Shown piece after piece: positions 11,433-45,905 of a stretch of 54,229 nt of DNA (positions are counted from its first letter, which is position 1; each line of letters begins with the position of its first letter). The position numbers and the translations under genes were made by a program. Source of the DNA: a virus; IMG/VR virus record IMGVR_UViG_3300035698_007284, positions 1-54,229 of that record. The stretch is one strand, 5' to 3'. A model generated the notes under the pieces. The model searched no databases. It was not told the origin of the DNA and was given only the letters and a program-made list of their open reading frames with translations.

Positions 11433-12125
11433 ATGGTAAGAAAAAGTATTGTGGTACTTTCTGGGGGTCTTGACAGCGCAGTAACAGCTTACTTCGCTAA
11501 AGGTGAACTAGGAACTGAAGGAGAGTTATATACTCTCTCATTTTCGTATGGCCAGAAACATAAAAAAGAGCTTAACTGTGCTTCCCAATTATCTATGGAG
11601 TTGGGAGCAACAGAGCATACTGTATTAAGTCTAAACCTCGGTCAATTAGTTAGATCCTCACTAATGTTTGGGGGTCAAGAGATACCAAGTGGAGGAGTTA
11701 AAGAGGGAGAAATACCTTCTACTTGGGTTCCTCAAAGAAATACAATCTTCTTGGTACTTGCTGCGGCGTATGCAGAGAAAGTAGGTGCCTCCTCAATCTA
11801 TACAGGTGTAAATGCAGTCGACTACAGTGGTTACCCTGATTGCAGACCTGACTTCATTAAAGCAGTAAACATGACCATAAACCTGGCCTCTAAAAAGTTT
11901 GTAGAGACAGGTGAAGGTTTTGATATTAAAACTCCACTAATATACCTCAGTAAACCAGATATAATTAAGATGGGTATGAAACTTGGTGTTCCCTTTGATA
12001 ATACCTGGAGTTGCTATAAAGGGGGTAAGAAGGCGTGTGGAAGCTGTGATTCTTGTCTCATCCGGAGGCAAGCATTCTTGGATGCAGATTCTATAGATCC
12101 AATAGAGTATGAGGAGGTAGGATGA
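11433..12125 (+). CDS. queC: QueC, 7-cyano-7-deazaguanine (preQ0) synthase
   Basis: 230 residues, full length. The N-type ATP pyrophosphatase loop SGGLDS is at 10-15. The zinc-binding cysteines C194, C202, C205 and C208 are all present. It converts 7-carboxy-7-deazaguanine to preQ0 using ATP and ammonia. It has a GGAGGTAAG site and is followed by folE, dpdA-like and queF genes. QueD and QueE are 6-8 kb further on, so the virus carries the entire GTP-to-preQ0 route. Confidence 0.95.
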   Translation: MVRKSIVVLSGGLDSAVTAYFAKGELGTEGELYTLSFSYGQKHKKELNCASQLSMELGATEHTVLSLNLGQLVRSSLMFGGQEIPSGGVKEGEIPSTWVPQRNTIFLVLAAAYAEKVGASSIYTGVNAVDYSGYPDCRPDFIKAVNMTINLASKKFVETGEGFDIKTPLIYLSKPDIIKMGMKLGVPFDNTWSCYKGGKKACGSCDSCLIRRQAFLDADSIDPIEYEEVG

Positions 12126-12511
12126 GTAATAAGAGAGACACAGAAGAAGATAAGGAGAATTATACAGGGGAACCAAAGGGATCTCCAGTTCCAAAATACA
12201 TACTGTTAGGTATGGGTCTTCTAGTAATCGGAATTTCTGCTATATTTATACTTATGAGTACTGGAAGTGACCCCCCTGACAAAAGGGATGCTCCTTTTAA
12301 GTTAATGACAGATAGAGGAGTATATTATTTAGTAGAGTACCAAATAAGAGCTGATGGCATCTTAGTTGGAAGAGAGTATATTGACAGTTTACAAGATGGT
12401 AGTCTTATTATAACTGGGAAAGGATTTGATATACTTTGGAGATTGCCTGAAAATCAGATGCCCCAACAGCCCATTGGTAATCCTGGAACACAAACTGGAG
12501 TAGTAGAATAA
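12122..12511 (+). CDS. Single-pass membrane protein
   Basis: 129 residues. A polar, charged N-terminus (1-24), one helix at about 26-45 and an extracytoplasmic or cytoplasmic domain of about 80 residues with DGxLVGREY and GSLIITGKGF strands. It overlaps queC by 4 bases and shares one base with folE, so it is made with the pathway genes. Role unknown. Confidence 0.65.
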   Translation: MSNKRDTEEDKENYTGEPKGSPVPKYILLGMGLLVIGISAIFILMSTGSDPPDKRDAPFKLMTDRGVYYLVEYQIRADGILVGREYIDSLQDGSLIITGKGFDILWRLPENQMPQQPIGNPGTQTGVVE

Positions 12512-13101
12512 TGGCAAAAGAAGATCTAAGAATGGGACTGGAGACATTCGTTCTAAATCTAAAACAGAGGTATAAAGGTTGGGAAGGTTATTCTCAATTC
12601 GAAGGCACTCCTGAAAGATTAGAAAGGATGTATGAAGAGTTCTGCTGGACACCTGAAGCAATAAAACTTGAGTTGGACAAAGTATTCAGAAAATTTGACC
12701 AGGACTTTGAGGAAATGATAATTGGTGGCCCATTTACTGTTTTCTCACTCTGTCCCCACCACTTCCTTCCCTGTAGGTTCACTGTATTTATAGGATATGT
12801 TCCTAAATTGGAAGATGAGCCTAAAGTGCTAGGGCTATCAAAGTTAGGTAGGATAGCAGAAATATTGGGTAAAAGACCCATTCTGCAGGAGCAGTACACA
12901 AAGGATATAACTGATGTGATACTGGAGAATCTAGGGCCAGAGGGTGTTGCAGTTAGTGTTACTGGTGAGCATAACTGTATGACATCTAGAGGAATAAAAC
13001 AACCAGATGCAAGGATAGTAACTAACATGATTAAAGGTTCCTTTTTAGATGAAGAGGCAACTAGAAATGAGTTCTTATCCTTTGCAAGGGCATATAAATA
13101 A
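12511..13101 (+). CDS. folE: FolE, GTP cyclohydrolase I
   Basis: 196 residues. Zinc ligands appear in CPHHFLP (C81, H84) and EHNCMTSRG (C156). GLSKLGRI near 108 and the QEQYT segment near 126 are family motifs. The enzyme opens GTP to 7,8-dihydroneopterin triphosphate, the first step toward preQ0. Having it on the virus frees the pathway from host folate regulation. Confidence 0.95.
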   Translation: MAKEDLRMGLETFVLNLKQRYKGWEGYSQFEGTPERLERMYEEFCWTPEAIKLELDKVFRKFDQDFEEMIIGGPFTVFSLCPHHFLPCRFTVFIGYVPKLEDEPKVLGLSKLGRIAEILGKRPILQEQYTKDITDVILENLGPEGVAVSVTGEHNCMTSRGIKQPDARIVTNMIKGSFLDEEATRNEFLSFARAYK

Positions 13102-13874: not shown

Positions 13875-14351
13875 ATGAACCCGGTAAGAGTAGATTTAGA
13901 CCAGGACCTAGTGGCCAAAATAAAAGGGCTGACTGTAACCTATGGAGTGGAACCCCAACCAGGGTTACTAATTCCTATTCCAAATAGGTTCCCAGAAAAT
14001 ATCTATATGGTAGACATAACTACAAGTGAGTTCACAAGTCTTTGTCCACTGCACACAGCACAGCCTGACTATGCCACTATTGGTATAGAGTATACCCCAG
14101 GAGAGAGCCTAGTCGAGTTAAAGTCGTTGAAACTTTACCTAGTTAGTTACAGACAGTGTCCTGTCTTCCATGAAGAGATCTGTAATCTGATCTTAAATGA
14201 CCTAGTGGAGGCTATTGAACCACTAGAAATGCACATCAAAGGTATCTTCACAACAAGAGGTGGACTAGACACAACTGTTCACTCCCATTATACAAGACCT
14301 CTTAGCCCTGAAGAGATAGAGGCCTATAAAAGGCAAGTAGATGTGGGTTAG
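13875..14351 (+). CDS. queF: QueF, preQ0 reductase
   Basis: 158 residues, the single-domain (YkvM-like) length. SEFTSLCPLHTAQPDY (51-66) carries the nucleophilic C57 and the acid D65. LKSLKLYLVSYR (82-93) is the NADPH-binding motif, and FHE is at 98-100. It reduces the nitrile of preQ0 to the aminomethyl group of preQ1. In this viral operon it implies that preQ1, not preQ0, is the base to be inserted. Confidence 0.93.
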   Translation: MNPVRVDLDQDLVAKIKGLTVTYGVEPQPGLLIPIPNRFPENIYMVDITTSEFTSLCPLHTAQPDYATIGIEYTPGESLVELKSLKLYLVSYRQCPVFHEEICNLILNDLVEAIEPLEMHIKGIFTTRGGLDTTVHSHYTRPLSPEEIEAYKRQVDVG

Positions 14352-14850
14352 AGGAGCCACTCCAGGGGACGTTGATATAATAGTGTCAATGGCCTCCGAC
14401 TACAAACCCTATATAAATCCCTACGTCCTTAACCCCACCCAAATAATGGCCTACTTAGATGAGTGGCTAGTTGGAGTAGAGAATGATCAGGTAGTAGGGT
14501 CTGTTCACTATGTTACATTAAGTAATATAGTATCAGATAAGGCTGTTAGGAACTATGCCTACTTAAAGCATATGAGGCAGGTTGATGAAAAAGTTCTTCA
14601 GATGTGTGTAGATAATGGTGGAATGTTCCTAGGTCAGATAACCTGTCCTGGTAAAGGCAGCCTAAGGGTACTGATTGACTATTTAAAGTCTGAATTCTCT
14701 CCAATATACTCATGGTTATCAATAACAAGCCCAGTTATAAGTTACTATCAAGAGAAATTGGGCTTTGCCTTTTCACAGGAGTCTTATGGGTTCATGAATA
14801 TCTATAAAGGTGACTATTCTTCTTTTAGGTTGGGAACATGGCAGAGATAG
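14341..14850 (+). CDS. GNAT-like acyltransferase
   Basis: 169 residues, overlapping queF by 11 bases. Layout fits the GNAT fold: IRGATPGDVD-like start, EWLVGVENDQVVGSV strand pair, a central GQITCPGKGS where acetyl-CoA would bind, and the C-terminal SPVISYYQEKLGFAFSQES, typical of GNAT beta6-alpha4. The substrate is unknown. Its tight link to queF suggests action on preQ1 or on preQ1-DNA (inference). An unrelated protein acetyltransferase is possible. Confidence 0.65.
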   Translation: MWVRGATPGDVDIIVSMASDYKPYINPYVLNPTQIMAYLDEWLVGVENDQVVGSVHYVTLSNIVSDKAVRNYAYLKHMRQVDEKVLQMCVDNGGMFLGQITCPGKGSLRVLIDYLKSEFSPIYSWLSITSPVISYYQEKLGFAFSQESYGFMNIYKGDYSSFRLGTWQR

Positions 14851-17926: not shown

Positions 17927-18298
17927 ATGAAAGTAGCAATAGAGAAATCATTTACTTTTCATTCTGCTCACAGACTACCAAACCATCCGGGTAAGTGCAG
18001 TAATATACATGGGCATACTTACCAACTAGATGTAAAAGTATCTGGGACTCCTCTAGACGATGGCAGAGGTGACTCAGGTATGGTAATGGATTTTGGAGAT
18101 CTTAAAGAAATAGTAACAGAGACAATAATAGACAAATATGACCACCAAGATCTTAATAACCACTTTGAGAATCCAACAGCAGAAAATATGGCTGCTATAA
18201 TCTGGTTAACTTTAGTAGATGTCTTACCCCATAAAGTTACACTAGAGAAAATCAGACTTTGGGAAACAGAGACAGCCTGTGCAGAGGTTGTTAGATAA
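17927..18298 (+). CDS. queD: QueD, 6-carboxytetrahydropterin synthase
   Basis: 123 residues. Zinc histidines H15 (FHSAH), H28 and H30 (IHGH); catalytic C24; D72-H73 in YDHQD; E86 in PTAEN; and the final WETE segment are all present. It converts dihydroneopterin triphosphate to 6-carboxy-tetrahydropterin, feeding QueE. It lies in the second half of the pathway, separated from queC and folE by recombination genes. Confidence 0.95.
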   Translation: MKVAIEKSFTFHSAHRLPNHPGKCSNIHGHTYQLDVKVSGTPLDDGRGDSGMVMDFGDLKEIVTETIIDKYDHQDLNNHFENPTAENMAAIIWLTLVDVLPHKVTLEKIRLWETETACAEVVR

Positions 18299-18866: not shown

Positions 18867-19392
18867 GTTAGTCACAGATTTACTCTCAGAGTGTAAAAAG
18901 GGAGATCACGACTGGGTGGAGATATCTAACTTGTCCCTTATAAGTACAGGATACAGAAAAGTAATTAAATGGTGTAATAACTGTGGTTCAATCATAGGGG
19001 TTCATGACTTAGATAGTAGACTTCTTAAACCAGAGGATATTATAGGTACTACTAAACCTGTTATATATCAAGAGTATTTAGAAAGGAGGAAATTAATGGG
19101 AGACAAAATGAGACTAACAGCTAAGTTGGCAGTATTTGCTGCCTCACTGGTATGGGTAATGTGGTGGTTATATCTCTTAATAATAGGTTATGACTACTTT
19201 GAAAATGTAGTTATACACTATGGAGAGATAGAAGAGGCCTGGTTCGTAGACGTTCTGGGAACTGGTTATGTAGTGACTGGCGTAATAGTAGCGATCTCAG
19301 TTGCCTTAAAAGGTTTTAACTTCGTTGCACGCTGGGAAAGAGACAAAGGTGTAGTAGTAAAAGAAGAAGAAGAAGAAGAGAATAATGGCTAG
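18859..19392 (+). CDS. Two-helix membrane protein with zinc-like N-terminus
   Basis: 177 residues from TTG 18859 after AAGGAGG. Residues 12-42 hold a C, H and CNNC set. Two helices lie at about 88-108 and 132-152, and the tail is a run of glutamates. An in-frame ATG at 19096 (residue 80) has its own perfect AAAGGAGG site, so a 98-residue product carrying only the membrane part may also be made. Confidence 0.6.
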   Translation: MDKLVTDLLSECKKGDHDWVEISNLSLISTGYRKVIKWCNNCGSIIGVHDLDSRLLKPEDIIGTTKPVIYQEYLERRKLMGDKMRLTAKLAVFAASLVWVMWWLYLLIIGYDYFENVVIHYGEIEEAWFVDVLGTGYVVTGVIVAISVALKGFNFVARWERDKGVVVKEEEEEENNG

Positions 19393-20086
19393 TAAAGTAA
19401 AGAGTCTTTCGATAAATGAACTATTCTATTCAATCCAAGGAGAAGGCATACACGCTGGAATACCAATGGTATTTATCAGATTACAGGGATGTAATCTAGC
19501 ATGTGACTGGTGTGATACAGCATATGCTAGAACTGTCTGTTCTCCTAACACCTCAAATGAGAAATTACTAGAAGAGGTAAGTTCATTATTCCCTATGCAG
19601 GCCCCGGGGGAGAGATGGATCTGTATAACTGGAGGGGAACCCCTAATCCAAAGAGAAGCGCTAGGGCCATTTCTCCACGAACTGAAGGCAAGAGGCTATA
19701 GAGTAGAAATAGAAACTAATGGGTCTCAAATCAAACCTGATTGGTGGATGGCTGCAGATAGTTGGGTAGTAGATGTTAAATGTCCCTCCTCTGGTGAGAA
19801 AGTAGATATTGATAAACTTACTATGTGGTTTAATTCTAGGCCATGTGACCAGGTAAAATTTGTAGTTGGTAAAGAAGAAGATTGTATCTTCGCTGAAAAA
19901 ATACTTACAGACTTTTATGGGGGATTAAAATCCTTTGACCCTACTGTTCTAATAAGTCCTGTTATATTAAAGAGCGCTGACAGGTATACTCTTCAATTAG
20001 CAACTAATCTATGTAAGAGATTAAACCTAAGATTTTCACTTCAGATCCATAAAGTTATTTGGGATCCTAAAGAAAGAGGTGTCTAG
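19385..20086 (+). CDS. queE: QueE, 7-carboxy-7-deazaguanine synthase
   Basis: 233 residues. The radical SAM cluster motif is CNLACDWC (CxxxCxxC, residues about 36-43), followed by ITGGEPL, VEIETNGS and KFVVGK. It converts 6-carboxytetrahydropterin to 7-carboxy-7-deazaguanine with SAM and iron-sulfur chemistry. It overlaps the preceding gene by 8 bases. A cluster-less paralogue lies at 16060-16605. Confidence 0.93.
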   Translation: MASKVKSLSINELFYSIQGEGIHAGIPMVFIRLQGCNLACDWCDTAYARTVCSPNTSNEKLLEEVSSLFPMQAPGERWICITGGEPLIQREALGPFLHELKARGYRVEIETNGSQIKPDWWMAADSWVVDVKCPSSGEKVDIDKLTMWFNSRPCDQVKFVVGKEEDCIFAEKILTDFYGGLKSFDPTVLISPVILKSADRYTLQLATNLCKRLNLRFSLQIHKVIWDPKERGV

Positions 20087-22072: not shown

Positions 22073-22624
22073 GTGAAAGATCTGATACTAACGATAGACA
22101 TGATTCCCCAGGCCAATTGGGGAAAAAGTCTAGCTCAACTGCTACCTAAGGAGGTCTGGGACGCTGTAAGAAGAGAGATATACAGAGACGCTAATTATAC
22201 CTGTATGATCTGTGAAATAACTGGAGTAGCAGTTCACTGCCATGAGGTATGGCATTTTAATGATAGAACAAAGACACAGACACTAAGGGGATTTCAGTGC
22301 CTATGTCCAGACTGTCATAGTGTTAAGCATTGGGGAAGAACAGTATCTACTGCCCATGAAGGTAAGATATCAAAAAATGAGATAAGAAGATTAGTTGAAC
22401 ACTTCTGTGAAGTTAATAATTGTACAGAAGAGAAGTTTAGAGACCACCAAGTTGATGCCACTTCTAATTGGAGTACAAGATCTGCAAAGAAGTATAAACT
22501 GGATTGGGGTCTATATTCTCCTAAGAAGATTATAAAGGCATTTGAGAAGAAAAAAGAAAAGTCATGGTCAAGTTTAAGATCAGGACTTTATTCAAAGAAG
22601 GGAGTAATTGATGGACCTAAATGA
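22073..22624 (+). CDS. HNH-type endonuclease
   Basis: 183 residues from GTG 22073, just after the previous stop and AGGAAGG. The zinc-finger HNH core is YTCMIC, then VHCHEVWHFND, then CLCPDCHSVKH (residues about 40-85). The C-terminal 100 residues are basic. It could be a homing-type or packaging-linked nuclease. Sitting directly before the RNR gene would suit a homing nuclease, though no intron is visible. Confidence 0.65.
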   Translation: MKDLILTIDMIPQANWGKSLAQLLPKEVWDAVRREIYRDANYTCMICEITGVAVHCHEVWHFNDRTKTQTLRGFQCLCPDCHSVKHWGRTVSTAHEGKISKNEIRRLVEHFCEVNNCTEEKFRDHQVDATSNWSTRSAKKYKLDWGLYSPKKIIKAFEKKKEKSWSSLRSGLYSKKGVIDGPK

Positions 22625-24713
22625 GAATTCCTTAATTGTACTGACTAAGAGATATTTAAGAAAAGATAAGGATGGCAACCCTATAGAAAACCCAGATCAG
22701 TTAATGAGGAGAGTCTCCTCAGAGATAGCGAAAGCAGAGAAATACTATAATCCTCCTGAGCACATACCCGAAGTAATAAAAGAGGTTACAGAGGAGTTTT
22801 ATCAGATACTAACTAGCCTAGAGTTTTTACCAAATTCCCCTACACTAATGAATGCAGGTAAAGGCACTGGACAGCTTTCGGGCTGCTTTGTTCTCCCCAT
22901 CGAAGATTCAATGGAGTCAATCTTTGATGCTGTTAAGTCTACTGCACTAATACACAAATCAGGTGGAGGCACAGGGTTTTCATTCTCTAGATTAAGACCT
23001 AAAGGTGGTAAGGTCTTCTCTACAGATGGAGTAGCAAGTGGCCCTGTGTCCTTCATGAGAGTATTCGATGCAGCTACAGAAGAGATAAAACAGGGTGGTA
23101 CTAGACGGGGAGCAAATATGGGTATACTTGATGTTACCCACCCTGACATTTTCTCATTTATATCCTGTAAAGCAGATAAAACTACTTTCCCTAACTTTAA
23201 CATTTCAGTAGCTGTTACTGAGGAATTTATGAAGGCAGTAGAAGATAGCAGGCCCTGGGACTTGATACATCCTAGTACAAAGGAAGTAGTTAAAACAGTT
23301 CCTGCTAGAGATATATTTGATAAGATAATAGAGAATGCCTGGAAGACAGGAGATCCTGGTTTAGTATTTGTAGATAGAATAAATAGAACAAATCCACTGC
23401 CAGAGTTGGGCTATATAGAGTCCACCAACCCCTGCGGAGAACAGCCCTTATTACCTTATGAGAGTTGCAATCTAGGATCAATAAATCTAAGCAAGTTCGT
23501 CCAGAGTGATAAGTCAGTAAATTGGGATAGATTAGAGAAAGTAACAAAGTTAGCAGTCAGGTTCCTAGACAACGTTATAGACGTTAATGTATTCCCCTTA
23601 GAGGTAATAGAAAAGAAAACTCTACTCACCCGTAAGATTGGATTGGGTGTAATGGGATTTGCTGATATGCTTATCATGATGGGCATTCCCTATGACAGTG
23701 AAAGAGCAATTGAAGTAGCAGATAAAGTAATGAGTTTTGTCCAAGAAAAGTCCCATGAGGCCTCTAAGTTGTTAGGTATAGAAAGAGGCATGTGTCCAGC
23801 AAATAAAGAGTTAGGTAGAAGGAATGCCTGCGTTACTACAATAGCACCAACAGGTACACTAAGTCTTCTAGCAGGATGTAGTAGTGGGATAGAGCCACTT
23901 ATCGGTTTGACTATAGTAAGGCGTCAGGCAGATGAGGTAATGGAAGAGGCCCATCCACTTTACAAAGCAATGCAGTCAGAGTTAGATGAAGTAGGGTTAC
24001 AGAAACTTTTCAGAGTAGCACATGATGTAGAGCCTTGGTGGCATCTAAGAATGCAGTCTACTTTCCAGGAGCACGTAGACAATGCAGTATCAAAGACAAT
24101 CAATATGGCAGAAGATGTTACTCAACTGGACGTTAGAGACTGTTATATGCTAGCCTATGAATTAGGATGTAAGGGATTAACTATATATAGAAACAAAAGT
24201 AAGGATATGCAGGTACTTGAAGTAGTAGAGGAAAATGGTTCTAAGACAGTATCAGGAACTGCAGTTGGGCCTAGACCTCGCCCTGCAGTAACCTTTGGTA
24301 TAAATGAGAGAATGAGCCTTAACTGTGGTAAGATATATGTTTCAGTTAACTCAGATGGTGAGGGTATATGTGAAGTATTTACTACCCTTGGAAAATCAGG
24401 AGGATGTACTGCAGCCCATTTAGAGGCAGTAAGTAAACTTGCATCAATGTCATTAAGATCTGGTATAGCACCAGAGGCAATAGTAAGTATACTTAAAGGA
24501 ATAAGATGTCCTGAAGTATCATGGTGTAGTGGTTCTCAGATATACTCATGTGAAGATGCAATAGGTAAAGTACTTGAAAAGAGAGTCGGGGAAGACAAGA
24601 AGTCAGGTAATGTAAAAGAACTTACAGGCCAGACTTGTCCTGAATGTAATAGTCTTCTAGTACATGAAGAAGGCTGTAATAAATGCTACTCTTGTGGCTT
24701 TTCGAAGTGCTAA
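22611..24713 (+). CDS. nrdJ: NrdJ, adenosylcobalamin-dependent (class II) ribonucleotide reductase
   Basis: 700 residues. N-terminal FLPNSPTLMNAG and GQLSGCFVLP, GTGFSFSRLRP, STNPCGEQPLLPYESCNLGS (radical-site cysteine region) and TIAPTGTLSLLAGCSSGIEP are all class II hallmarks. The C-terminus CPECNS followed by CNKCYSCG is the redox/zinc tail. It makes dNTPs without oxygen or a second subunit but needs B12, which suggests a host that makes or imports B12. Confidence 0.95.
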   Translation: MDLNENSLIVLTKRYLRKDKDGNPIENPDQLMRRVSSEIAKAEKYYNPPEHIPEVIKEVTEEFYQILTSLEFLPNSPTLMNAGKGTGQLSGCFVLPIEDSMESIFDAVKSTALIHKSGGGTGFSFSRLRPKGGKVFSTDGVASGPVSFMRVFDAATEEIKQGGTRRGANMGILDVTHPDIFSFISCKADKTTFPNFNISVAVTEEFMKAVEDSRPWDLIHPSTKEVVKTVPARDIFDKIIENAWKTGDPGLVFVDRINRTNPLPELGYIESTNPCGEQPLLPYESCNLGSINLSKFVQSDKSVNWDRLEKVTKLAVRFLDNVIDVNVFPLEVIEKKTLLTRKIGLGVMGFADMLIMMGIPYDSERAIEVADKVMSFVQEKSHEASKLLGIERGMCPANKELGRRNACVTTIAPTGTLSLLAGCSSGIEPLIGLTIVRRQADEVMEEAHPLYKAMQSELDEVGLQKLFRVAHDVEPWWHLRMQSTFQEHVDNAVSKTINMAEDVTQLDVRDCYMLAYELGCKGLTIYRNKSKDMQVLEVVEENGSKTVSGTAVGPRPRPAVTFGINERMSLNCGKIYVSVNSDGEGICEVFTTLGKSGGCTAAHLEAVSKLASMSLRSGIAPEAIVSILKGIRCPEVSWCSGSQIYSCEDAIGKVLEKRVGEDKKSGNVKELTGQTCPECNSLLVHEEGCNKCYSCGFSKC

Positions 24714-24714
24714 G

Positions 24715-25431
24715 ATGGATATAGGCTTCGTTGTACCAATTTGCCTACTAGACTCAGTTAAGGCTAGTAAATTCCAAGTATGCTACGCCTCTGTAGCTAG
24801 ACAGAGTGTTGAGTACAGTGAGTTCTTTAAGCAAAGAAGTACAGATACTATCGTTATTCTGGATCACACTCCCCTTCTGCCCAGGAAACCTGTAAAGTCA
24901 ATACTTGCCTTAACAGAAAGTATAGAGCCTAATGCAGTAGTGTTACCTAATATTGACTACGCCTTAAAAAAGACACTTCAGTTATCCTTTGGAGTTCTCA
25001 ACTCTTTACATGATAGTCAGTTTAGTAAATGTATAGGAGTTATACAGGGTCAGAACATAGATGAGTTAGCAATATGCTATAGTGAACTAAAGACTGTATG
25101 TGGAATAATTGGATTGCCTGCCTCAGTGGAGAAAATCATCTCTAGAAATACTTTAATAGAGAAACTTTCTATAACTAAACCCTTAATATACCTGGAAGTA
25201 TTCTGCGATCCAGTAAAAGAGGTACCAACCACAGAAAAAGCATTAGGTATAATTACCTCACTACCAGCAAAGCTGGCCTACGAAGGTAGGAGTTTGGCAA
25301 ATTACACTCCAACACCTGCACCATTAGATTTCTTTAATCCTTTTAAACCAAACATGGATCTACTTATAAAGAATATGTCTAATTACAGAAATGTAGTTGA
25401 TATGGTAAGGAGTATAGAAAACCATGAGTAA
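24715..25431 (+). CDS. Second transglycosylase (TGT/DpdA)-like protein, catalytic residues lost
   Basis: 238 residues from ATG 24715. It aligns along its length with the DpdA-like protein at 13111: VILDHT against KMLDNS, PNAVVLPN against PNKICPPD, CIGVIQGQNIDE against LLPIIQGSTHGE. The aspartate of the PPD motif is N79 here. The SIDTGFP nucleophile segment corresponds to GIITSLP (178-184), without aspartate. It is probably a non-catalytic TIM-barrel partner, as in the eukaryotic TGT heterodimer. Homology fairly sure, role inferred. Confidence 0.55.
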   Translation: MDIGFVVPICLLDSVKASKFQVCYASVARQSVEYSEFFKQRSTDTIVILDHTPLLPRKPVKSILALTESIEPNAVVLPNIDYALKKTLQLSFGVLNSLHDSQFSKCIGVIQGQNIDELAICYSELKTVCGIIGLPASVEKIISRNTLIEKLSITKPLIYLEVFCDPVKEVPTTEKALGIITSLPAKLAYEGRSLANYTPTPAPLDFFNPFKPNMDLLIKNMSNYRNVVDMVRSIENHE

Positions 25432-31047: not shown

Positions 31048-31235
31048 TGGTACCCAATAATCCTGTACCAATAATGATCTCGATAATTATAGGGATACCC
31101 ATGGCCTCTGGTATAGTAGAATTAACTGAAGGTAATATACTTAAAGGTATACTTCCTATTCTAATAGGTGTCCTTGGATTAGTAATCTATCTAATAATAA
31201 TTAAGAAATGGTATACAAGGAAAAAGCATGATTGA
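31047..31235 (+). CDS. Two-helix membrane protein
   Basis: 62 residues. Helices at about 5-25 and 30-52, basic C-terminus (KKWYTRKKH). It overlaps the polymerase gene by 8 bases. Not recognised. Confidence 0.55.
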   Translation: MVPNNPVPIMISIIIGIPMASGIVELTEGNILKGILPILIGVLGLVIYLIIIKKWYTRKKHD

Positions 31236-33699
31236 CCTAAGTTTATGTAACTGTGAAGAATGTCCTATGCAGGACAGTGACATGGTCCCAACAAGGGACA
31301 TCTTCCTTTCACCTTATGGTGTTCCATATCAAGCGGTAATAAGGAATGGAGTATTTACTCATAGATTCAAGAGAGTACAGTATCAAGAAAAAGAGGAAGA
31401 TGTAACAATACTATTTATAGGTATGGCCCCTGCCTGGGAAGAAGTCGCACAGTGTAGCTTCTTTGTTGGTGCATCTGGAAAACTGCTGAGGAAAGTAAGT
31501 GATCAGTTAGATGTTCCAAAAATAGTAGTAACTAATACACTTATTTGCAGGATAAAAGAAGGCTCAACTGAATCTGAAATAACAAGGGCCAGTAGATGCT
31601 GTAGTGGTAGACTAGATAAAGAAATAGAGGATATGCAGCCTGACTTAACTATAGTACTTGGCAACTTACCTCTTAAGAGGATATTAGGTCTTGAGGGAGT
31701 TCAGAAGGTAGAAGGTAAAATAATAGACAGTGACAAGTATGGGCCTGTACTACCAATTACACATCCGGCTGCTGCACTTAGAAATCCAGACTTTTATTTA
31801 GACTTTGTTTATGCCTTTAAAAAGGGTATTGACTTTCTAAATGGAACTTGGAAACAGATAACCTGGGTACCAGAGACAGTAGTTGCTGATGCTACAAATA
31901 TAACAGATATCTGCCAGATAATAAATAATGCACCAGAGGTAGCAATAGATTTAGAAACCACAAGAGGTGGCCTACATCCTTATGGTAGGGAACCTGATGG
32001 CATAAGATGTGCTGCAATTGCAGTAGAAGAGAGAACTGCTTACATTATACCTGGAGAGAGTTCAGTTCACTTTGAGCCTCATCCTAACTATATGCAACAT
32101 CCAGGTTTAATAGAGGTAATGAATAAGTCCAATACTATAATGCATAATGGCCAGTTTGATAATGCCTTCCTTTGGCAAGCAGGGTATGATACTACTATAG
32201 GGTATGATACTATGCTTGCAGCCTACGTTAAAGATGAGAGATCCTGGGCAATAGGATTAAAGGCCCTATCACAGAGAATACTAGGTGCACCTGAGTGGGA
32301 AGAAGACCTTGGTAGATGGAGACCTACTTCCAAGTCAAGTTTCGACTTAGTGCCAGATGATGTCTTATATGGATACGCATCCTGGGATGTAACTTGTACC
32401 TATATGCTTAAAAAGCACTTTGAGAAGATAGTAACCGAAGAATACTTCTTTGATCTACTTATGCCCTGTACCAATATGTTTGTAGATCTAAGACATAGTG
32501 GTGCTAGAGTAAATCCTGGTATGTTAATGAAAACAGATACATTCATAGCAGAGGAACTATTAGCTACAGAGAAAAGATGGTATGAGATGGCAGGGTATAG
32601 ATACAATCCCATGTCCCCTCAAGATAAATGCGATTATCTCTATGATGTATTAAAACTTCCTATGGACAAGCACCTGGGTAGAACATCTAGTAAAAAGTAT
32701 TTAGAGAAGTTTGCTGACTTGGAACAGGTTCAACTACTAATGGAAATTGGTAGGATGAATAAATTAAGATCAACCTATGTACTATCAGTAGCAAACTTCA
32801 TGGACAATGATTATCTCATTCATCCTAACATTAAACTATTTAGTACAGTAACAGGTAGAGCATCTGCTGAAGACCCTTCTGTAATGAATATAGTAAGAAA
32901 TAAAGACATAAAAGCAATGTATGAGCCTAGGGATAAAGATAAGTGGATGATGAGTGCTGACCAGAAGCAGATGGAGTTAAGATGGTACGTAATAGTTACT
33001 AGGGATGAATACCTTAAGAATTTACTATTAACAAGTGACCCCCATGACATAATAAATCAGGAGGTGAATAGATTATCAAATGGTGACTATTCTAGAGGTA
33101 AAACAAAGACAGCAGTTTTTGGAGTCATATATTTAAGAGGAGCAGAATCCCTTGCTAGAGGATTTAATTTAACTTTGCCTTCTGCTAACCTTTTAAAGAA
33201 CACAATAAGGAATTTAGTTCCCACAATAGGGGATTATCATGAGTCGACACTAAATGAAATAAAGGCAACTGGTGAATTAACAACATACTTTGGTAGGAAA
33301 AGAAGAATGGGGTTATTAACTAAAGATAACATAAATGAAATCCAAAGAATGGGTGTTAACTTTAAGATTCAGTCTCCCGCATCAGATACTAACTTATATG
33401 GTATGCTTCATGCCTATAATAATCAAAAGAGATTGGGTTGCAGGCCATTATGGCCCATCCATGATGATGTACTAATGGAGATTGATCACCCTGACTGTTG
33501 CCTCCAAATCAAGAAAGAACTAGAAGAATGTACAATGGCTCTAGTTGATAACTATATGCAGTTTACAATAGAACCTAAAGCAGGTAAGAATTGGGGATAT
33601 ATGAAACCTATTTGTCCCACTTGCGGTAAGCAGGTAGAAGTAGTAGACATTAAAAAGCATTGGGATGGATTAGAGTATCATAGTAGTTGTCTAAATTAA
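31228..33699 (+). CDS. Uracil-DNA-glycosylase / family A DNA polymerase fusion
   Basis: 823 residues. Residues 1-205 resemble family 4 UDG: cysteines 7, 9 and 12, GMAPAWEE (65-72), TNTLICR, C123/C124 and the HPAA motif (179-182). Residues 230-400 are a 3'-5' exonuclease with DLET (241-244), HNGQFD (306-311) and YASWD (383-387). The polymerase has motif A DQKQMELR (D578), motif B RGKTKTAVFGVIY (623-635) and motif C HDD (745-747). A CPTC...C zinc-like tail ends it. Phage SPO1 polymerase has a similar N-terminal UDG-like domain. This is probably the main replicase. Confidence 0.9.
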   Translation: MIDLSLCNCEECPMQDSDMVPTRDIFLSPYGVPYQAVIRNGVFTHRFKRVQYQEKEEDVTILFIGMAPAWEEVAQCSFFVGASGKLLRKVSDQLDVPKIVVTNTLICRIKEGSTESEITRASRCCSGRLDKEIEDMQPDLTIVLGNLPLKRILGLEGVQKVEGKIIDSDKYGPVLPITHPAAALRNPDFYLDFVYAFKKGIDFLNGTWKQITWVPETVVADATNITDICQIINNAPEVAIDLETTRGGLHPYGREPDGIRCAAIAVEERTAYIIPGESSVHFEPHPNYMQHPGLIEVMNKSNTIMHNGQFDNAFLWQAGYDTTIGYDTMLAAYVKDERSWAIGLKALSQRILGAPEWEEDLGRWRPTSKSSFDLVPDDVLYGYASWDVTCTYMLKKHFEKIVTEEYFFDLLMPCTNMFVDLRHSGARVNPGMLMKTDTFIAEELLATEKRWYEMAGYRYNPMSPQDKCDYLYDVLKLPMDKHLGRTSSKKYLEKFADLEQVQLLMEIGRMNKLRSTYVLSVANFMDNDYLIHPNIKLFSTVTGRASAEDPSVMNIVRNKDIKAMYEPRDKDKWMMSADQKQMELRWYVIVTRDEYLKNLLLTSDPHDIINQEVNRLSNGDYSRGKTKTAVFGVIYLRGAESLARGFNLTLPSANLLKNTIRNLVPTIGDYHESTLNEIKATGELTTYFGRKRRMGLLTKDNINEIQRMGVNFKIQSPASDTNLYGMLHAYNNQKRLGCRPLWPIHDDVLMEIDHPDCCLQIKKELEECTMALVDNYMQFTIEPKAGKNWGYMKPICPTCGKQVEVVDIKKHWDGLEYHSSCLN

Positions 33700-33716: not shown

Positions 33717-34361
33717 ATGGAACCCAGACCTTACAAAGGAAGACCTAAGGTAGCTCAGATGCTATACAAAAAGGGATATCTAAGTAGACTGCCCTATCAG
33801 ATAGATAGATCTGATTTAAGGTACGATGATGGAGTAGATATAGTTTACGAACTAAAAAATCTACCTCCAGAAAAGTTTGGAGAGGCCTCAGATATTCTAT
33901 TAGGGGCAGCAACTGAAGAGCTTAATAGATATAAGGATATACAATTTAAGTTCGCAACTATAGATATTAAACTTAATAGAACAGCAAGAGGTAGGAAGAA
34001 GGTAGCAGAAGTAAGATCCTATACAGCTGCTAAGCATTATGATGCAGATGTAATGATTTATGGGGAGAAAACATTAGGGTATGAACTACCTGACTGGGTG
34101 GGTAAAAAACCCTTCCTTATAAATAAAATAGAAGAGATCCTTGCGATACCTGAGGGCCCAAGTCCTGGCCCTTTTGTTAAGAAACAGAAACCCTTTACTG
34201 TATTAAGAATGACGTTTTCAGTAAGGGTGGGTAAACAGACACCTGAAAAGGTTGAAGGGGCCAAGGGAGTTTTCCATAAAAGTAAGTTCGTTGATCTGCC
34301 TACAAGTGATCCACAAGGTATAGATTACTGGGGTGGGGAAAAACCAGGAACTATTAGATGA
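33717..34361 (+). CDS. Unknown basic protein between the polymerases (terminal-protein candidate)
   Basis: 214 residues, basic, no membrane segment, start after AGAGG. Residues 75-115 are strongly basic (KLNRTARGRKK) and the C-terminal third is rich in K, P and G. It overlaps the family B polymerase start by 4 bases. In phi29-like genomes the terminal protein gene lies directly before the polymerase gene, so position alone suggests a protein primer. No sequence proof. Confidence 0.6.
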   Translation: MEPRPYKGRPKVAQMLYKKGYLSRLPYQIDRSDLRYDDGVDIVYELKNLPPEKFGEASDILLGAATEELNRYKDIQFKFATIDIKLNRTARGRKKVAEVRSYTAAKHYDADVMIYGEKTLGYELPDWVGKKPFLINKIEEILAIPEGPSPGPFVKKQKPFTVLRMTFSVRVGKQTPEKVEGAKGVFHKSKFVDLPTSDPQGIDYWGGEKPGTIR

Positions 34362-36130
34362 TACCTACATTTGATATAGAATTACTAGGATGGACTGACC
34401 CAGTAGCTTTAGGCTACTATGATGGAACCACTTATCACGAGTTCCTAAAGACCTCTGATGAAGCAAACGTGGTAAGTGAGTTCCTTGATCACTTAATAAA
34501 ATACGATATGATGGGAACCAAAATCTATGCCCATAGAGCAAAGGACTGTGACAATAAGTTTATACTAAGAGAGTTATACAGAAGGGGAGAAAGAATAGGC
34601 TTCGTAGGAGGAACAGGCAGATTAACTTGGGAAGACCAATTAATAGTATTTGAAGACAGTTACTTAACACTTACAAGGGCACTAAGAGCTCTCTGTGAGG
34701 CATTTGGTGTAGAAAGAAAACTTTACTGGGACCATAGTAAAACTAAACCTATCTGGGAAATGGCGAATGCACTAGATGCCTTTAGAGCGTATCTAAAAAG
34801 AGACGTACTAGGTCTATCAGAGGTAATGGACAAATACACAGAGACTCTATTAGAAAACTTTGGTATACTACCTTCCCTAACAATGCCACTTACAGCAGTT
34901 AAAGCCTTTGATAAAAGATACTACTCAGTTGGTGAGATACACTCAAATGAGCAGGTTGAAGGCCCTATAAGGGAAGCGACATATGGGGGTAGGAACGAGG
35001 TCTTTAAAAGGTACGGTAAAGGAGTATATATGTATGACGTAAGAAGTATGTATACTTCTTGCTATAATACAGGAGTCCCTATAGGGGCACTTAAATGGTG
35101 TCCTCCAGACATAGACAAGCCTGGTATAGTCTATGCTAAAGTAAAAGTGCCTGATAGCACTCACTTAGGGCCTCTTCCATATAGGTTTAGATCCAATAAC
35201 ATGACAACATCTAGACTTATTTTTCCAGTAGGGGAGTTCCAGGGTTGGTGGGATGTCAGAGAACTAAAAATGGCAATACAGATGGGTGTTGATGTAACTA
35301 TCATAAAGCAACTAACAGGAGAACACTATCCTGCATTACAAGAATTTGGTGCAAAGATCTGCGAATTAAGAAGTTCAGCCCCTAATAAACAGATGAGTGG
35401 CGTTTGGAAACTCTTTGGTGTTAGATTAAGTGGAAAGTTGGGCCAAAGAAGAATTTCAAGTGAGATTAGACACGCACAAGATATAGAGGATTTCACAGGT
35501 TGGCTGCCAATAGATGAAGAGGAATGCTACCACGAAAAGGTAAGTACTAGTAAGGGTAGAAGATCCCCCTATATAAAACCTGCTGTAAACATGGCAATAC
35601 GGGCAGAGGCAAGGATAAGGCATATGGAAAGGTTAATGGAGGTATATACAAGAAAGGGGCAGTTGTATTACTGTGATAACGATTCTATATTCTCAAATAA
35701 ACCATTATTTATAGGTCAGGATGCTGGTGAACTTCAATTAGTAGATCATGCAACTGAAGCCTACTTCATTAGACCTAAATTTTATGGGTATGAGGACGAT
35801 AGGGGAAACTTCAAACAGAGAACATCGGGGTATAAAGACTTTAAATTAAACTTATCTGATTTTAAGAGGATATTAAAAGGAGAGAAAATACTAAACACTT
35901 TTGAGACACTTAGTGGTTGGAAAACTGCTATGTCAGAAGAGGGACTCAAGAGGATAGAGTCAAAGAGATCAGTTAAGGTAACTAGAGAGTTTGAAAATAG
36001 AGTAACAAAGGGAATTTATACTTTCCCACTAAAACTTAGAACTAGCCCTAGTGGAGGACTATCAGTTCTGAACGTAGATAACCCAGATGAGTTTTTGAGG
36101 ACTTCAAAGCAGGGACATGAGGATTCTTAA
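34358..36130 (+). CDS. Family B DNA polymerase, protein-primed (phi29-like) type
   Basis: 590 residues, close to the phi29 enzyme. Exonuclease motifs: DIE (6-8), an ExoII region near 58-65 and YLKRD (145-149). The YxGG-type motif is YGGR (209-212). Polymerase motif A is DVRSMYTS (D227), motif B is KLFGVRLSGKLGQ (351-363), motif C is YCDNDS (438-443, D440 and D442), and KFY (474-476) is the KxY motif. The 125 residues between motifs A and B leave room for the TPR1 insertion of protein-primed enzymes. Last gene of the rightward block. Confidence 0.85.
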   Translation: MIPTFDIELLGWTDPVALGYYDGTTYHEFLKTSDEANVVSEFLDHLIKYDMMGTKIYAHRAKDCDNKFILRELYRRGERIGFVGGTGRLTWEDQLIVFEDSYLTLTRALRALCEAFGVERKLYWDHSKTKPIWEMANALDAFRAYLKRDVLGLSEVMDKYTETLLENFGILPSLTMPLTAVKAFDKRYYSVGEIHSNEQVEGPIREATYGGRNEVFKRYGKGVYMYDVRSMYTSCYNTGVPIGALKWCPPDIDKPGIVYAKVKVPDSTHLGPLPYRFRSNNMTTSRLIFPVGEFQGWWDVRELKMAIQMGVDVTIIKQLTGEHYPALQEFGAKICELRSSAPNKQMSGVWKLFGVRLSGKLGQRRISSEIRHAQDIEDFTGWLPIDEEECYHEKVSTSKGRRSPYIKPAVNMAIRAEARIRHMERLMEVYTRKGQLYYCDNDSIFSNKPLFIGQDAGELQLVDHATEAYFIRPKFYGYEDDRGNFKQRTSGYKDFKLNLSDFKRILKGEKILNTFETLSGWKTAMSEEGLKRIESKRSVKVTREFENRVTKGIYTFPLKLRTSPSGGLSVLNVDNPDEFLRTSKQGHEDS

Positions 36131-42934: not shown

Positions 42935-43124
42935 TACTTCCCTTTATATAGTACTGACGTAGCATAGAGGGTACTAACAGAATTGTTACACATAAAGCAA
43001 ACACAAGAGCAAAGGCCAATAAGACTGAAGTTCCAATATCCCCCCAGAACTTATTGTGTTTTCGGACTATTTCTTTTAAACCTTTTCCAATAATACCCAC
43101 GATACTTCTCCCATCTTGGTACAT
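42918..43124 (-). CDS. Single-pass membrane protein
   Basis: 68 residues. A basic amphipathic N-terminus (1-28), one helix (about 30-53) and a short polar tail. It overlaps both neighbours (17 and 74 bases). Not recognised. Confidence 0.55.
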   Translation of the reverse strand: MYQDGRSIVGIIGKGLKEIVRKHNKFWGDIGTSVLLAFALVFALCVTILLVPSMLRQYYIKGSNASSN

Positions 43125-44268
43125 ACTTACTTTCCATTACTTCCAGAGAAACTAAACCTAATAATGCAAAGTAGAAAGGCATCCAAAGATTAAACCACCA
43201 CCAGTCTGCACTACCTGTGGCAGACATTATAAATATAGCAAGTAAAGCATACCTATATCTTTTACTTACCCAGATTGCAGAAAGTGTAACGAAAGTCCAT
43301 GCTAACGAAGCTAAAAGTCCAATATCATCTAATAACAGCATAGGGACATTATGGATATTTATACCATATCTGCCCTGTTCAGTCATTATATCCCCGTCTT
43401 TATTAGTTTCTAGATAAAATCCATGTCCTACGAAACTAAAGTTATCTATTACACTTTCATTTTGATACCATCTGGTATCTAATGAGTCAGCAGCCCTAAA
43501 GTCTCTTTCTTCAATCACTGCTCTAACCTTGTCTTCCTGCCAAACCCTTTCTCTAAGATTAGTAGAAGAGGTAACAGCAATAAAAAGTACAAGAACACAA
43601 ACCCCTACTGCTAATAGAAATCTTCTACTTAAATGTACTTCCCTTTTACATATTGCTATAAGGGAGCAACCTACCAAAGCCATAAGAGCCCAATAGGAAC
43701 CTGTAAACAGAATTGTTCCTACTGCTGGAAATGCTAACCATTTCCATTTACCTCTAAGTAGGAATATACAAACCGTTAGTATAGAAGCAATCTGGTCTGT
43801 ATTATCTGAAAAACCAGTTGCTCTTGCTATAAATATTTCATGCTGTATCAATCTATCTATACCATCCCACATCACACTGAAACTAAGGATGATTATTATA
43901 GGAACAGCAAAGTACGTTAAGTTATGCCCTTTACTTATAGCAGTAACATAAATACCGAACATAAAGATCATTACTATTAGAAAGAAAATTGAGGAACCTA
44001 TCTTATCCCAATCAAGAAAAAGCCAAATAAAGGCTGAGTACAGTATTAATAACAGTGGTATATAGATCACCTTAGGTCCTAATTTCAACTCTTTCCATTT
44101 AAAGACAAATGTTCCAAAAACGCCAGCAAAGAACAGCATGAAGGCCATCACTGACGATGAACCTGATCCCCAAGGCATGCCTCTAAAGGAAAGGAATACA
44201 AATCCAATTAGCATATATACTAAAAGGAAGTCAATTTTCTTACCAAATAGGGTGTTATCAACTTTCAT
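43051..44268 (-). CDS. O-antigen ligase/polymerase-like membrane protein
   Basis: 405 residues from ATG 44268, about ten helices. The large loop near residues 265-320 has DSLDTRWYQNESVIDNFSFVG, then GHGFYLE, then INIHNVPMLLLDDIGLLASL. This is the R-x3-W...G-G...H-N...L-L...G-L pattern of the Wzy_C/O-antigen ligase family. These enzymes join or polymerise lipid-linked glycans at the outer face of the membrane. Next to a GT-C transferase, it suggests alteration of host surface glycans or glycosylation of virion proteins. Confidence 0.75.
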   Translation of the reverse strand: MKVDNTLFGKKIDFLLVYMLIGFVFLSFRGMPWGSGSSSVMAFMLFFAGVFGTFVFKWKELKLGPKVIYIPLLLILYSAFIWLFLDWDKIGSSIFFLIVMIFMFGIYVTAISKGHNLTYFAVPIIIILSFSVMWDGIDRLIQHEIFIARATGFSDNTDQIASILTVCIFLLRGKWKWLAFPAVGTILFTGSYWALMALVGCSLIAICKREVHLSRRFLLAVGVCVLVLFIAVTSSTNLRERVWQEDKVRAVIEERDFRAADSLDTRWYQNESVIDNFSFVGHGFYLETNKDGDIMTEQGRYGINIHNVPMLLLDDIGLLASLAWTFVTLSAIWVSKRYRYALLAIFIMSATGSADWWWFNLWMPFYFALLGLVSLEVMESKYVPRWEKYRGYYWKRFKRNSPKTQ

Positions 44269-44524
44269 TTTTTCTGTCCTTAAAGTAGATAACAAACCTA
44301 TAACTAAGGTAACCTAAACTGCCACCAATCACAAGCATAGAAGCAGCCCATAACCAAGTCTTATTTGAATAGGTTGTCCATAACCACTCATCCCACTCAA
44401 AGTCACCTCTGAGTAGACGGTAGCTCTCTGGTCCAGCAAACATTATCGCTATTGCTGTAATTACGGGCATAAGTAAGATCGAAATACATCGGGTCCTCTC
44501 TCTCCATAAAGGCGACAAAAACAT
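44258..44524 (-). CDS. Two-helix membrane protein overlapping the GT-C gene
   Basis: 88 residues with helices at about 13-32 and 57-78. The start has a strong CGGAGGTAGAG site at 44525-44535. The first 122 bases lie inside the 3' end of the GT-C gene in another frame, a long overlap. The stop overlaps the ligase-like start. Probably part of the same glycan module. Confidence 0.55.
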   Translation of the reverse strand: MFLSPLWRERTRCISILLMPVITAIAIMFAGPESYRLLRGDFEWDEWLWTTYSNKTWLWAASMLVIGGSLGYLSYRFVIYFKDRKNES

Positions 44525-45905
44525 CTCTACCTCCGTTTAATTTTGCTACTAAATGGCACCAATCTTCAAAGTTTTTATTCATCTTAGGCTGATCAGCTTC
44601 TTCGAAGACTGGAGGAACAATAATTCCCTTATCCTCTAGATTCTCAATATAGTTCTCATATCTGTCATCCCAGTAAACTTTTGCATACCTCATAAGGTTA
44701 ATGTCATTATCTTCCTTTAAGTTATGGTACTCAGTTATTAAACCAGGATGAGCCCACGCACTGGTTATTATAATACTACCATCATCAACTTCATCCAAGA
44801 TCTGATAAAACTGTCTTGCAGTAGTTGGGCTTTCATCAACGTTTCTGTTAAGGTCATAGTTAACTACATTGTTAACCATTAGGACTATAGGTATTATAAG
44901 GAATATAGGAGTAGCCCATTTATAGGGAACTCTACTAAATCCCCAACCTGCAAGTATAGCAGCAAAGGCTGATACGAAGGTTAAATAGGTAACCCATTGA
45001 GGAAGTAATGAGAACATATATAGTGACAGAACTGCCAAGCCAATAGAGGCCACCAAATAAACATGTCTTTCTCTCCTTAGGTATAAGTACAGAGGTAAAG
45101 TAAAACCAAAACTAAGCCCACCAACTATGGTGAACTCATACCATCTACTTAATGTACTACTAAAGGGGTCAACTGGTAATGCCCCTACTATCTGAAGTAT
45201 ATCAAATACTGTTAACCCAGATTCAGCAAGACCATTATCAGCACTACTATCAGAAAGTATCATCTGTAAGTACGAAAGGAAACCTAGACAGCCAAAGGCA
45301 CTTATTTTAGCAACAAACTTCCAATCCTTATTCTTCTGATAGTAAACATACACTAAGCAAGGAATTATTGCAAAAGTAACTATTGGATGTAATCCTAAAC
45401 CTAATGCAAAGACAAAAGTTGCCCAATAAAATCTATGGATGAGTGTAAAGTATGTGCCTCCTACCATTACTAGTAATGTGGGAGTATACACTTCAGGAAT
45501 AGTACTCTGCGTCCATGCTATAAACGAACCAGCGTAAACTAGCGCGCCCACATATGGAGCCCATTTATTAGTTGTGAAGCGTGCTACTGAAAGGAATATG
45601 AATATACATACACCTACTGAACAGAGGGCACTTAATACTGCTCCCCACCAATAAGGATTTCCTGGCATGTGAACGAAAGGCCATGCTAATATCATCCACA
45701 TTGGGTAGCCTGCTAAAATAGCAGGTTCCATATATTCAGCTGAACCAACATAAGAGAACATATCTGAGCCTAAACTCATCCAAGTCATGTCAGTTGTTAG
45801 TCCCCAAAGATAGAACTGAAATATTATTGAGAAGAATATTATCTCTTTCCACTTATTGTAGGTCAATATAGACCTAAGGAATACCACCTCTTTCACACTA
45901 TTCAT
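44403..45905 (-). CDS. GT-C glycosyltransferase-like membrane protein (DUF2723/PMT type)
   Basis: 500 residues. N-terminal ten or more helices, an early acidic loop GSDMFSYVGSAEYMEP where GT-C enzymes hold the catalytic acid, and a STIPEVYTPTLL segment like DUF2723 members. The last 150 residues are a soluble domain (SIIITSAWAHPG, W-DDRYENYIENL). It probably transfers a sugar from a lipid carrier on the outer face. Start after GGAGGTAAG. Confidence 0.75.
   Translation of the reverse strand: MNSVKEVVFLRSILTYNKWKEIIFFSIIFQFYLWGLTTDMTWMSLGSDMFSYVGSAEYMEPAILAGYPMWMILAWPFVHMPGNPYWWGAVLSALCSVGVCIFIFLSVARFTTNKWAPYVGALVYAGSFIAWTQSTIPEVYTPTLLVMVGGTYFTLIHRFYWATFVFALGLGLHPIVTFAIIPCLVYVYYQKNKDWKFVAKISAFGCLGFLSYLQMILSDSSADNGLAESGLTVFDILQIVGALPVDPFSSTLSRWYEFTIVGGLSFGFTLPLYLYLRRERHVYLVASIGLAVLSLYMFSLLPQWVTYLTFVSAFAAILAGWGFSRVPYKWATPIFLIIPIVLMVNNVVNYDLNRNVDESPTTARQFYQILDEVDDGSIIITSAWAHPGLITEYHNLKEDNDINLMRYAKVYWDDRYENYIENLEDKGIIVPPVFEEADQPKMNKNFEDWCHLVAKLNGGRDVFVAFMEREDPMYFDLTYARNYSNSDNVCWTRELPSTQR

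Follow-up and report, generated by a model that had tools for sequence, protein, structure and literature searches.

Does a single virus encode both a catalytic and a non-catalytic transglycosylase, and do the two act together on its DNA? This question is raised by two plus-strand genes in the window, which comprises all 54,229 bases of an IMG/VR virus record and lacks a terminal direct repeat. One of these genes encodes a DpdA-like protein, P0001; the other, at 24715..25431, encodes the 238-amino-acid protein P0002, in which the original prediction recognized a dead relative of P0001 and a possible viral analogue of the dead subunit of the eukaryotic queuine transglycosylase.

The reading frame of P0002 is intact over 238 codons and lies where it had been predicted: its ATG at 24715 is 1 base past the TAA stop codon (24711-24713) of the gene directly upstream, which encodes a B12-dependent ribonucleotide reductase (RNR; 22608..24713, plus strand; NCBIfam NF006417 and TIGR02504) and is a probable operon partner, considered here as context only. 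With an alternative in-frame ATG at 24664, P0002 would overlap the RNR gene. No preQ0 genes are found beside P0002, and the genes of P0001 and P0002, 11 kb apart, are not adjacent and belong to separate neighbourhoods.

Homology and active site of P0002

The direct comparison of P0002 with P0001 yields a weak match (BLASTP, 20% identity over 120 aa, E=0.05), and, therefore, similarity over most of the length, as originally claimed, is not demonstrable from this pair alone. The claim does stand when relatives are included. Using P0001 and the proteins of phages CP220 and Youna2 as scan queries, we collected 80 IMG/VR loci, and a family HMM of 83 DpdA relatives, from which P0002 was excluded, detected P0002 among 3974 ORFs with E=2e-10. 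The viral DpdA of locus L196 is matched by P0002 over 233 aa (BLASTP, 25% identity, E=6e-13), with the GVDSSIP motif of L196 facing GIITSLP of P0002; P0001 and P0002 match this protein about equally well. A BLASTP search of P0002 against the loci fetched first returned DpdA proteins only. In the general collections, nothing in Pfam, NCBIfam, phages or plasmids was matched by P0002, and PHROGs gave no match at E below 0.01; P0001, likewise, is matched by no Pfam or NCBIfam model.

AlphaFold2 models of both proteins were built on one shared family alignment (P0002, pLDDT 89.8 and pTM 0.87; P0001, pLDDT 92.1 and pTM 0.90). The best 50 rows of the VIA-align search with the P0002 model were all tRNA-guanine transglycosylases (TGTs), with Z of 16.1-16.7, the best being 1iq8 (Z 16.7, rmsd 3.3, 224 aligned residues), and plain Foldseek returned TGTs mixed with other barrels. 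For P0001, VIA-align gave 1iq8 at Z 17.2 and the DpdA structure 7ui4 at Z 16.3, the latter being also the top Foldseek match. The predicted structure thus rules out the outcome that was to have refuted the original prediction, namely a lack of structural similarity to TGT, and P0002 combines homology with a modelled TIM barrel of the TGT type, as expected for the DpdA/TGT superfamily. The possibility that P0002 is an unrelated TIM barrel resembling the family by chance could draw on the identity to P0001 of only ~20% and on the failure of the family libraries to match it. Nevertheless, we consider the probability of such a resemblance to be negligible and rule it out, given the agreement of the profile, the direct BLASTP alignment and the TGT fold. 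Judged by sequence and model together, P0002 is a true, highly diverged DpdA/TGT homologue.

The active-site columns were read over 150 family sequences, using the numbering of P0001. The aspartate of column D49 is present in 150 of 150 sequences, and column Q109 contains 142 Q and 8 H. In each of the four other columns, P0002 is the only sequence with a different residue: D80 (149 D, N in P0002), H170 (149 H, I in P0002), G173 (149 G, E in P0002) and the nucleophile D195 (147 D, two gaps, I in P0002). We take the equivalents in Z. mobilis TGT to be D102 for D49, D156 for D80, Q203 for Q109 and the nucleophile D280 for D195; the assignment of D195 is also supported by a local alignment, of weak E-value, to the SIDSTTP motif of 7ui4. 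Both substitutions in the original prediction are confirmed: PN replaces PD through N79 (codon AAT, 24949-24951), so that the base-binding aspartate is lost, and the nucleophile aspartate is replaced by I180 (codon ATT, 25252-25254) in the motif GIITSLP. Further losses, beyond those predicted, affect the HLLG motif, where H is changed to I158 and G to E161. The second catalytic aspartate (D50) and the pocket glutamine (Q111) are retained. Because isoleucine and asparagine occupy the positions of the nucleophile and base-binding aspartates, P0002 is not classed as an active DpdA, and it is unique in this respect among the 150 sequences.

The scaffold appears to have been spared. The core hydrophobic columns are kept in 49 of 52 cases, as many as in active relatives (background 47%), and the codon fit, 0.176 in frame versus ~0 in other frames, resembles that of neighbouring genes. 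An erased pocket on a kept scaffold seems to fit a selected pseudoenzyme better than drift, although this pattern cannot serve as a test of selection, the searches having yielded no orthologue to compare. The zinc motif CxCxxC...H of canonical TGTs was searched for in both proteins, and neither P0001 nor P0002 contains CxCxxC or CxxC. Altogether, we consider it very probable that P0002 is a dead DpdA paralogue.

The intact DpdA and the preQ1 genes

P0001 (13111..13863, plus strand, 250 aa) is a catalytically intact DpdA in which D49, D80, Q109, H170, G173 and D195 are all present, i.e., a predicted TGT-type TIM barrel with two catalytic aspartates and a base-binding Asp/Gln pair. It is similar to the Campylobacter CP220-type and Youna2 proteins. 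Its gene lies between folE and queF in a plus-strand cluster ordered queC, folE, dpdA, queF, with queD and queE within 7 kb. The cluster genes encode the preQ0 synthase QueC (11433..12125; Pfam PF06508, E=4.9e-73), the GTP cyclohydrolase I FolE (12511..13101; PF01227, E=3.4e-40) and a type II QueF, which converts preQ0 to preQ1 (13875..14351; PF14489). Downstream, on the same strand, are QueD, of the 6-pyruvoyl tetrahydropterin synthase family (17927..18298; PF01242, E=5e-37), and a QueE-like radical SAM protein (19385..20086; PF04055) that directly matches radical SAM proteins in the queE position of related loci. Since QueF scores above the cut-off of NCBIfam TIGR03139, a preQ1 synthase model, a route to preQ1 is encoded by the virus; the preQ1 pathway (folE, queC, queD, queE, queF) is complete in the same genome as an intact DpdA. 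Together with the active-site columns of P0002, the intact P0001 lends good support to the predicted coexistence of a catalytic and a catalytically dead TGT-fold protein in one virus.

Several other genes of the window were recorded. Directly after queF, a 169-aa protein (14341-14850) has, by eye, the look of a GNAT-type acyltransferase, with no Pfam or NCBIfam match; it might further modify preQ1. At 31228-33699 and 34358-36130, there is a family A DNA polymerase that carries a uracil-DNA-glycosylase domain at its N-terminus, plus a protein matching DNA_pol_B_2. On the minus strand (43051-45905), an O-antigen-ligase-like gene (Wzy_C, below cut-off) adjoins one for a TMEM260-like protein O-mannosyltransferase.

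Distribution and origin of the pair

Whole records, many of which are fragments, were searched with the family profile in sets of 46 (34 matched), 10 (including two repeats) and 36; this search is independent of conserved peptides, which might be missing from a dead copy. The original prediction proposed to look for co-occurrence of the two proteins in related contigs. Among about 90 other whole viral records, no pair of a live and a dead DpdA was detected, and thus the pair is not conserved in relatives as far as these possibly fragmentary records go. The Campylobacter CP220 and Youna2 phages have a single match each to the DpdA family. Three candidates for a second copy were rejected. In record G079, the small DpdA gene (L265:3198-4285) is one gene split by stops into two ORFs, with two TAG codons inside the match. 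The second match in G014 is a partial copy at the contig end. The extra match in G030 (L189:4255-6186) belongs to a different, 643-aa protein that is encoded among portal-like and other head genes and harbours, in its interior, a TGT-like domain whose motifs (LDNG, GPDV, PQG, ALG and SIDS) are intact; the same virus also has a small DpdA.

Scans of phages, plasmids, IMG/VR and GTDB revealed no P0002 orthologues; it should be noted that the IMG/VR and GTDB scans use short conserved peptide patterns, and diverged orthologues could, therefore, escape them. No close relative of the virus was found in single-sequence RNR and PolA scans, and an RNR alignment scan returned loci whose RNR identity did not exceed about 50%. 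No other dead DpdA turned up in the sequence collections or in the literature searched, where no paper combined DpdA with the term "pseudoenzyme". P0002 was seen in a single virus, and its generality does not hold.

In the free trees, P0002 groups with the DpdA proteins of L113, L124, L168, L196, Youna2 and BSP7, and P0001 groups with those of Campylobacter and Flavobacterium phages; the branch that divides the two has a support of 96/99 or 95/99. Both proteins sit on long branches, and the AU test does not reject a tree that unites them in one clade (p=0.29). We lean, on the basis of these trees, toward separate origins within the family; a recent duplication of P0001 is unsupported by the trees, yet not rejected by the AU test. 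The dpdA gene adjoins PolA in L113, L124, L168, L196 and Youna2, and RNR then follows in L113, L124 and L168. A possible history is that a resident DpdA, now P0002, lost catalysis after P0001 had joined the queC/folE cluster.

Possible roles of P0002 and known systems

The reading that we favour makes P0002 a retained pseudo-transglycosylase, i.e., a DpdA-family TIM barrel that would be incapable of base exchange, and the non-catalytic subunit of a putative P0001/P0002 dimer. P0001 would carry out the exchange of G for preQ0 or preQ1 in viral DNA, with a covalent intermediate on D195 and with D49 as the acid/base, and P0002 would hold or orient the DNA for the active subunit, by analogy with TGT dimers and with QTRT2 on tRNA. 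Heterodimerisation is plausible by this analogy, because TGTs act as dimers with one active subunit. The prevailing view is that one subunit performs catalysis while the other positions the tRNA, and E. coli TGT is able to load two tRNAs (PMC13416341). A partner role is favoured by the selective erasure of the active site in P0002 and by the fact that the same genome encodes a live paralogue, and the isoelectric points, 4.48 for P0001 (more acidic than any of the 38 relatives) and 6.33 for P0002 (near the basic end among the relatives compared), are a weak hint of pairing. Conversely, the lack of conservation of the pair, the separation of the genes, the missing zinc motif and the single-gene systems of relatives are against such a role. 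The whole statement, a dead paralogue that is also the partner of P0001, is accordingly a tentative one, to which we assign somewhat less than even confidence; that the viral DNA transglycosylase is an obligate P0001/P0002 heterodimer, evolved independently of QTRT1/QTRT2, is doubtful.

The position of the P0002 start codon, 1 base after the RNR stop, suggests co-translation with RNR and not with P0001. It could, thus, be argued that P0002 is a pseudoenzyme kept for a function that does not involve P0001: its binding partner might, for example, be viral DNA, the host TGT or preQ bases, with modification being regulated or blocked, or it might serve nucleotide metabolism together with RNR. The retained D50 and Q111 and the absence of a conserved pairing speak for such a role; nevertheless, its ligand is conjecture and unrelated phage genes often share one packed block, and we regard this explanation as unlikely. 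The phylogeny raises the further possibility, which we consider rather unlikely, that P0002 is a relic, i.e., an older DpdA of the virus lineage that became redundant after the arrival of P0001 and is decaying before its frame has broken. Its grouping with the DpdA of the PolA/RNR-linked viruses (L113, L124, L168, L196 and Youna2), in which dpdA adjoins PolA with RNR nearby in several, the 96/99 branch between it and P0001, and the empty orthologue search all agree with decay. However, a decaying gene would have to reconcile a long branch, which implies much change, with an unbroken frame and normal codon use, as well as with the selective loss of active-site residues on a core kept as in active relatives; in addition, the AU test does not reject a common clade of the two proteins. 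The change of the invariant glycine of HLLG to E161, along with the kept D50, could alternatively point to a changed enzyme with new chemistry in the old barrel, such as base hydrolysis or removal. This appears improbable, given that no relative has the residue set of P0002, that the remaining pocket residues are lost and that a defined substrate is without support.

If P0002 is indeed a subunit, as in our favoured reading, the division of labour in which one TGT subunit is active and the other orients the substrate would have arisen twice, for tRNA and for DNA, and the pair would reveal the way in which small DpdA proteins engage DNA when they lack a zinc domain. Should P0002 instead be a relic or a regulator, it would still be a clear natural example of an active site erased while the TGT scaffold was preserved.

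Although diverged, P0001 is an ordinary member of the small phage DpdA group (PHROG 19058), known from the Campylobacter CP220 group, Flavobacterium immuto, Weizmannia Youna2 and Bacillus BSP7 phages, with which it shares length, fold and the motifs LDN, PD, QG, HLLG and SIDT. The CP220-type proteins are presumably the subfamily named DpdA3 in Cui et al. 2023. In most isolates viewed, the gene is near preQ0 genes. Beside or near dpdA, a thymidylate-kinase-like gene was observed in the CP220, CC_R7, immuto and BSTP8 phages (L003 15819, L271 2775, L274 3478 and L275 1381), and Youna2 and BSP7 have unannotated genes of similar size in this position; no such gene was seen adjoining P0001 in the window. 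Unlike the small phage proteins, P0002 is without the nucleophile, the PD aspartate, the HLLG residues and neighbouring preQ0 genes. The closest solved DNA-modifying structure to P0001 is the bacterial DNA preQ0 insertase DpdA (PDB 7ui4), which we assume to belong to a bacterial defence cluster; its VHLLG...SIDSTTP aligns with HLLG...SIDT of P0001, whereas its length is over 400 residues, compared to about 240-250 in P0001 and P0002. DpdA and DpdA2 have been described (PMC6884629). In eukaryotes, QTRT2 is a dead second subunit whose catalytic and pocket residues are lost (PMC6165067). The virus resembles the QTRT1/QTRT2 system in that its genome, too, encodes a catalytic TGT-fold protein alongside a dead one from which residues of both kinds have disappeared. 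QTRT2 keeps the zinc domain and has changes of D to E and D to C, whereas P0002 has no zinc motif, an isoleucine in place of the nucleophile and the other aspartate kept; for the viral pair, the substrate is presumed to be DNA and the dimer is putative.
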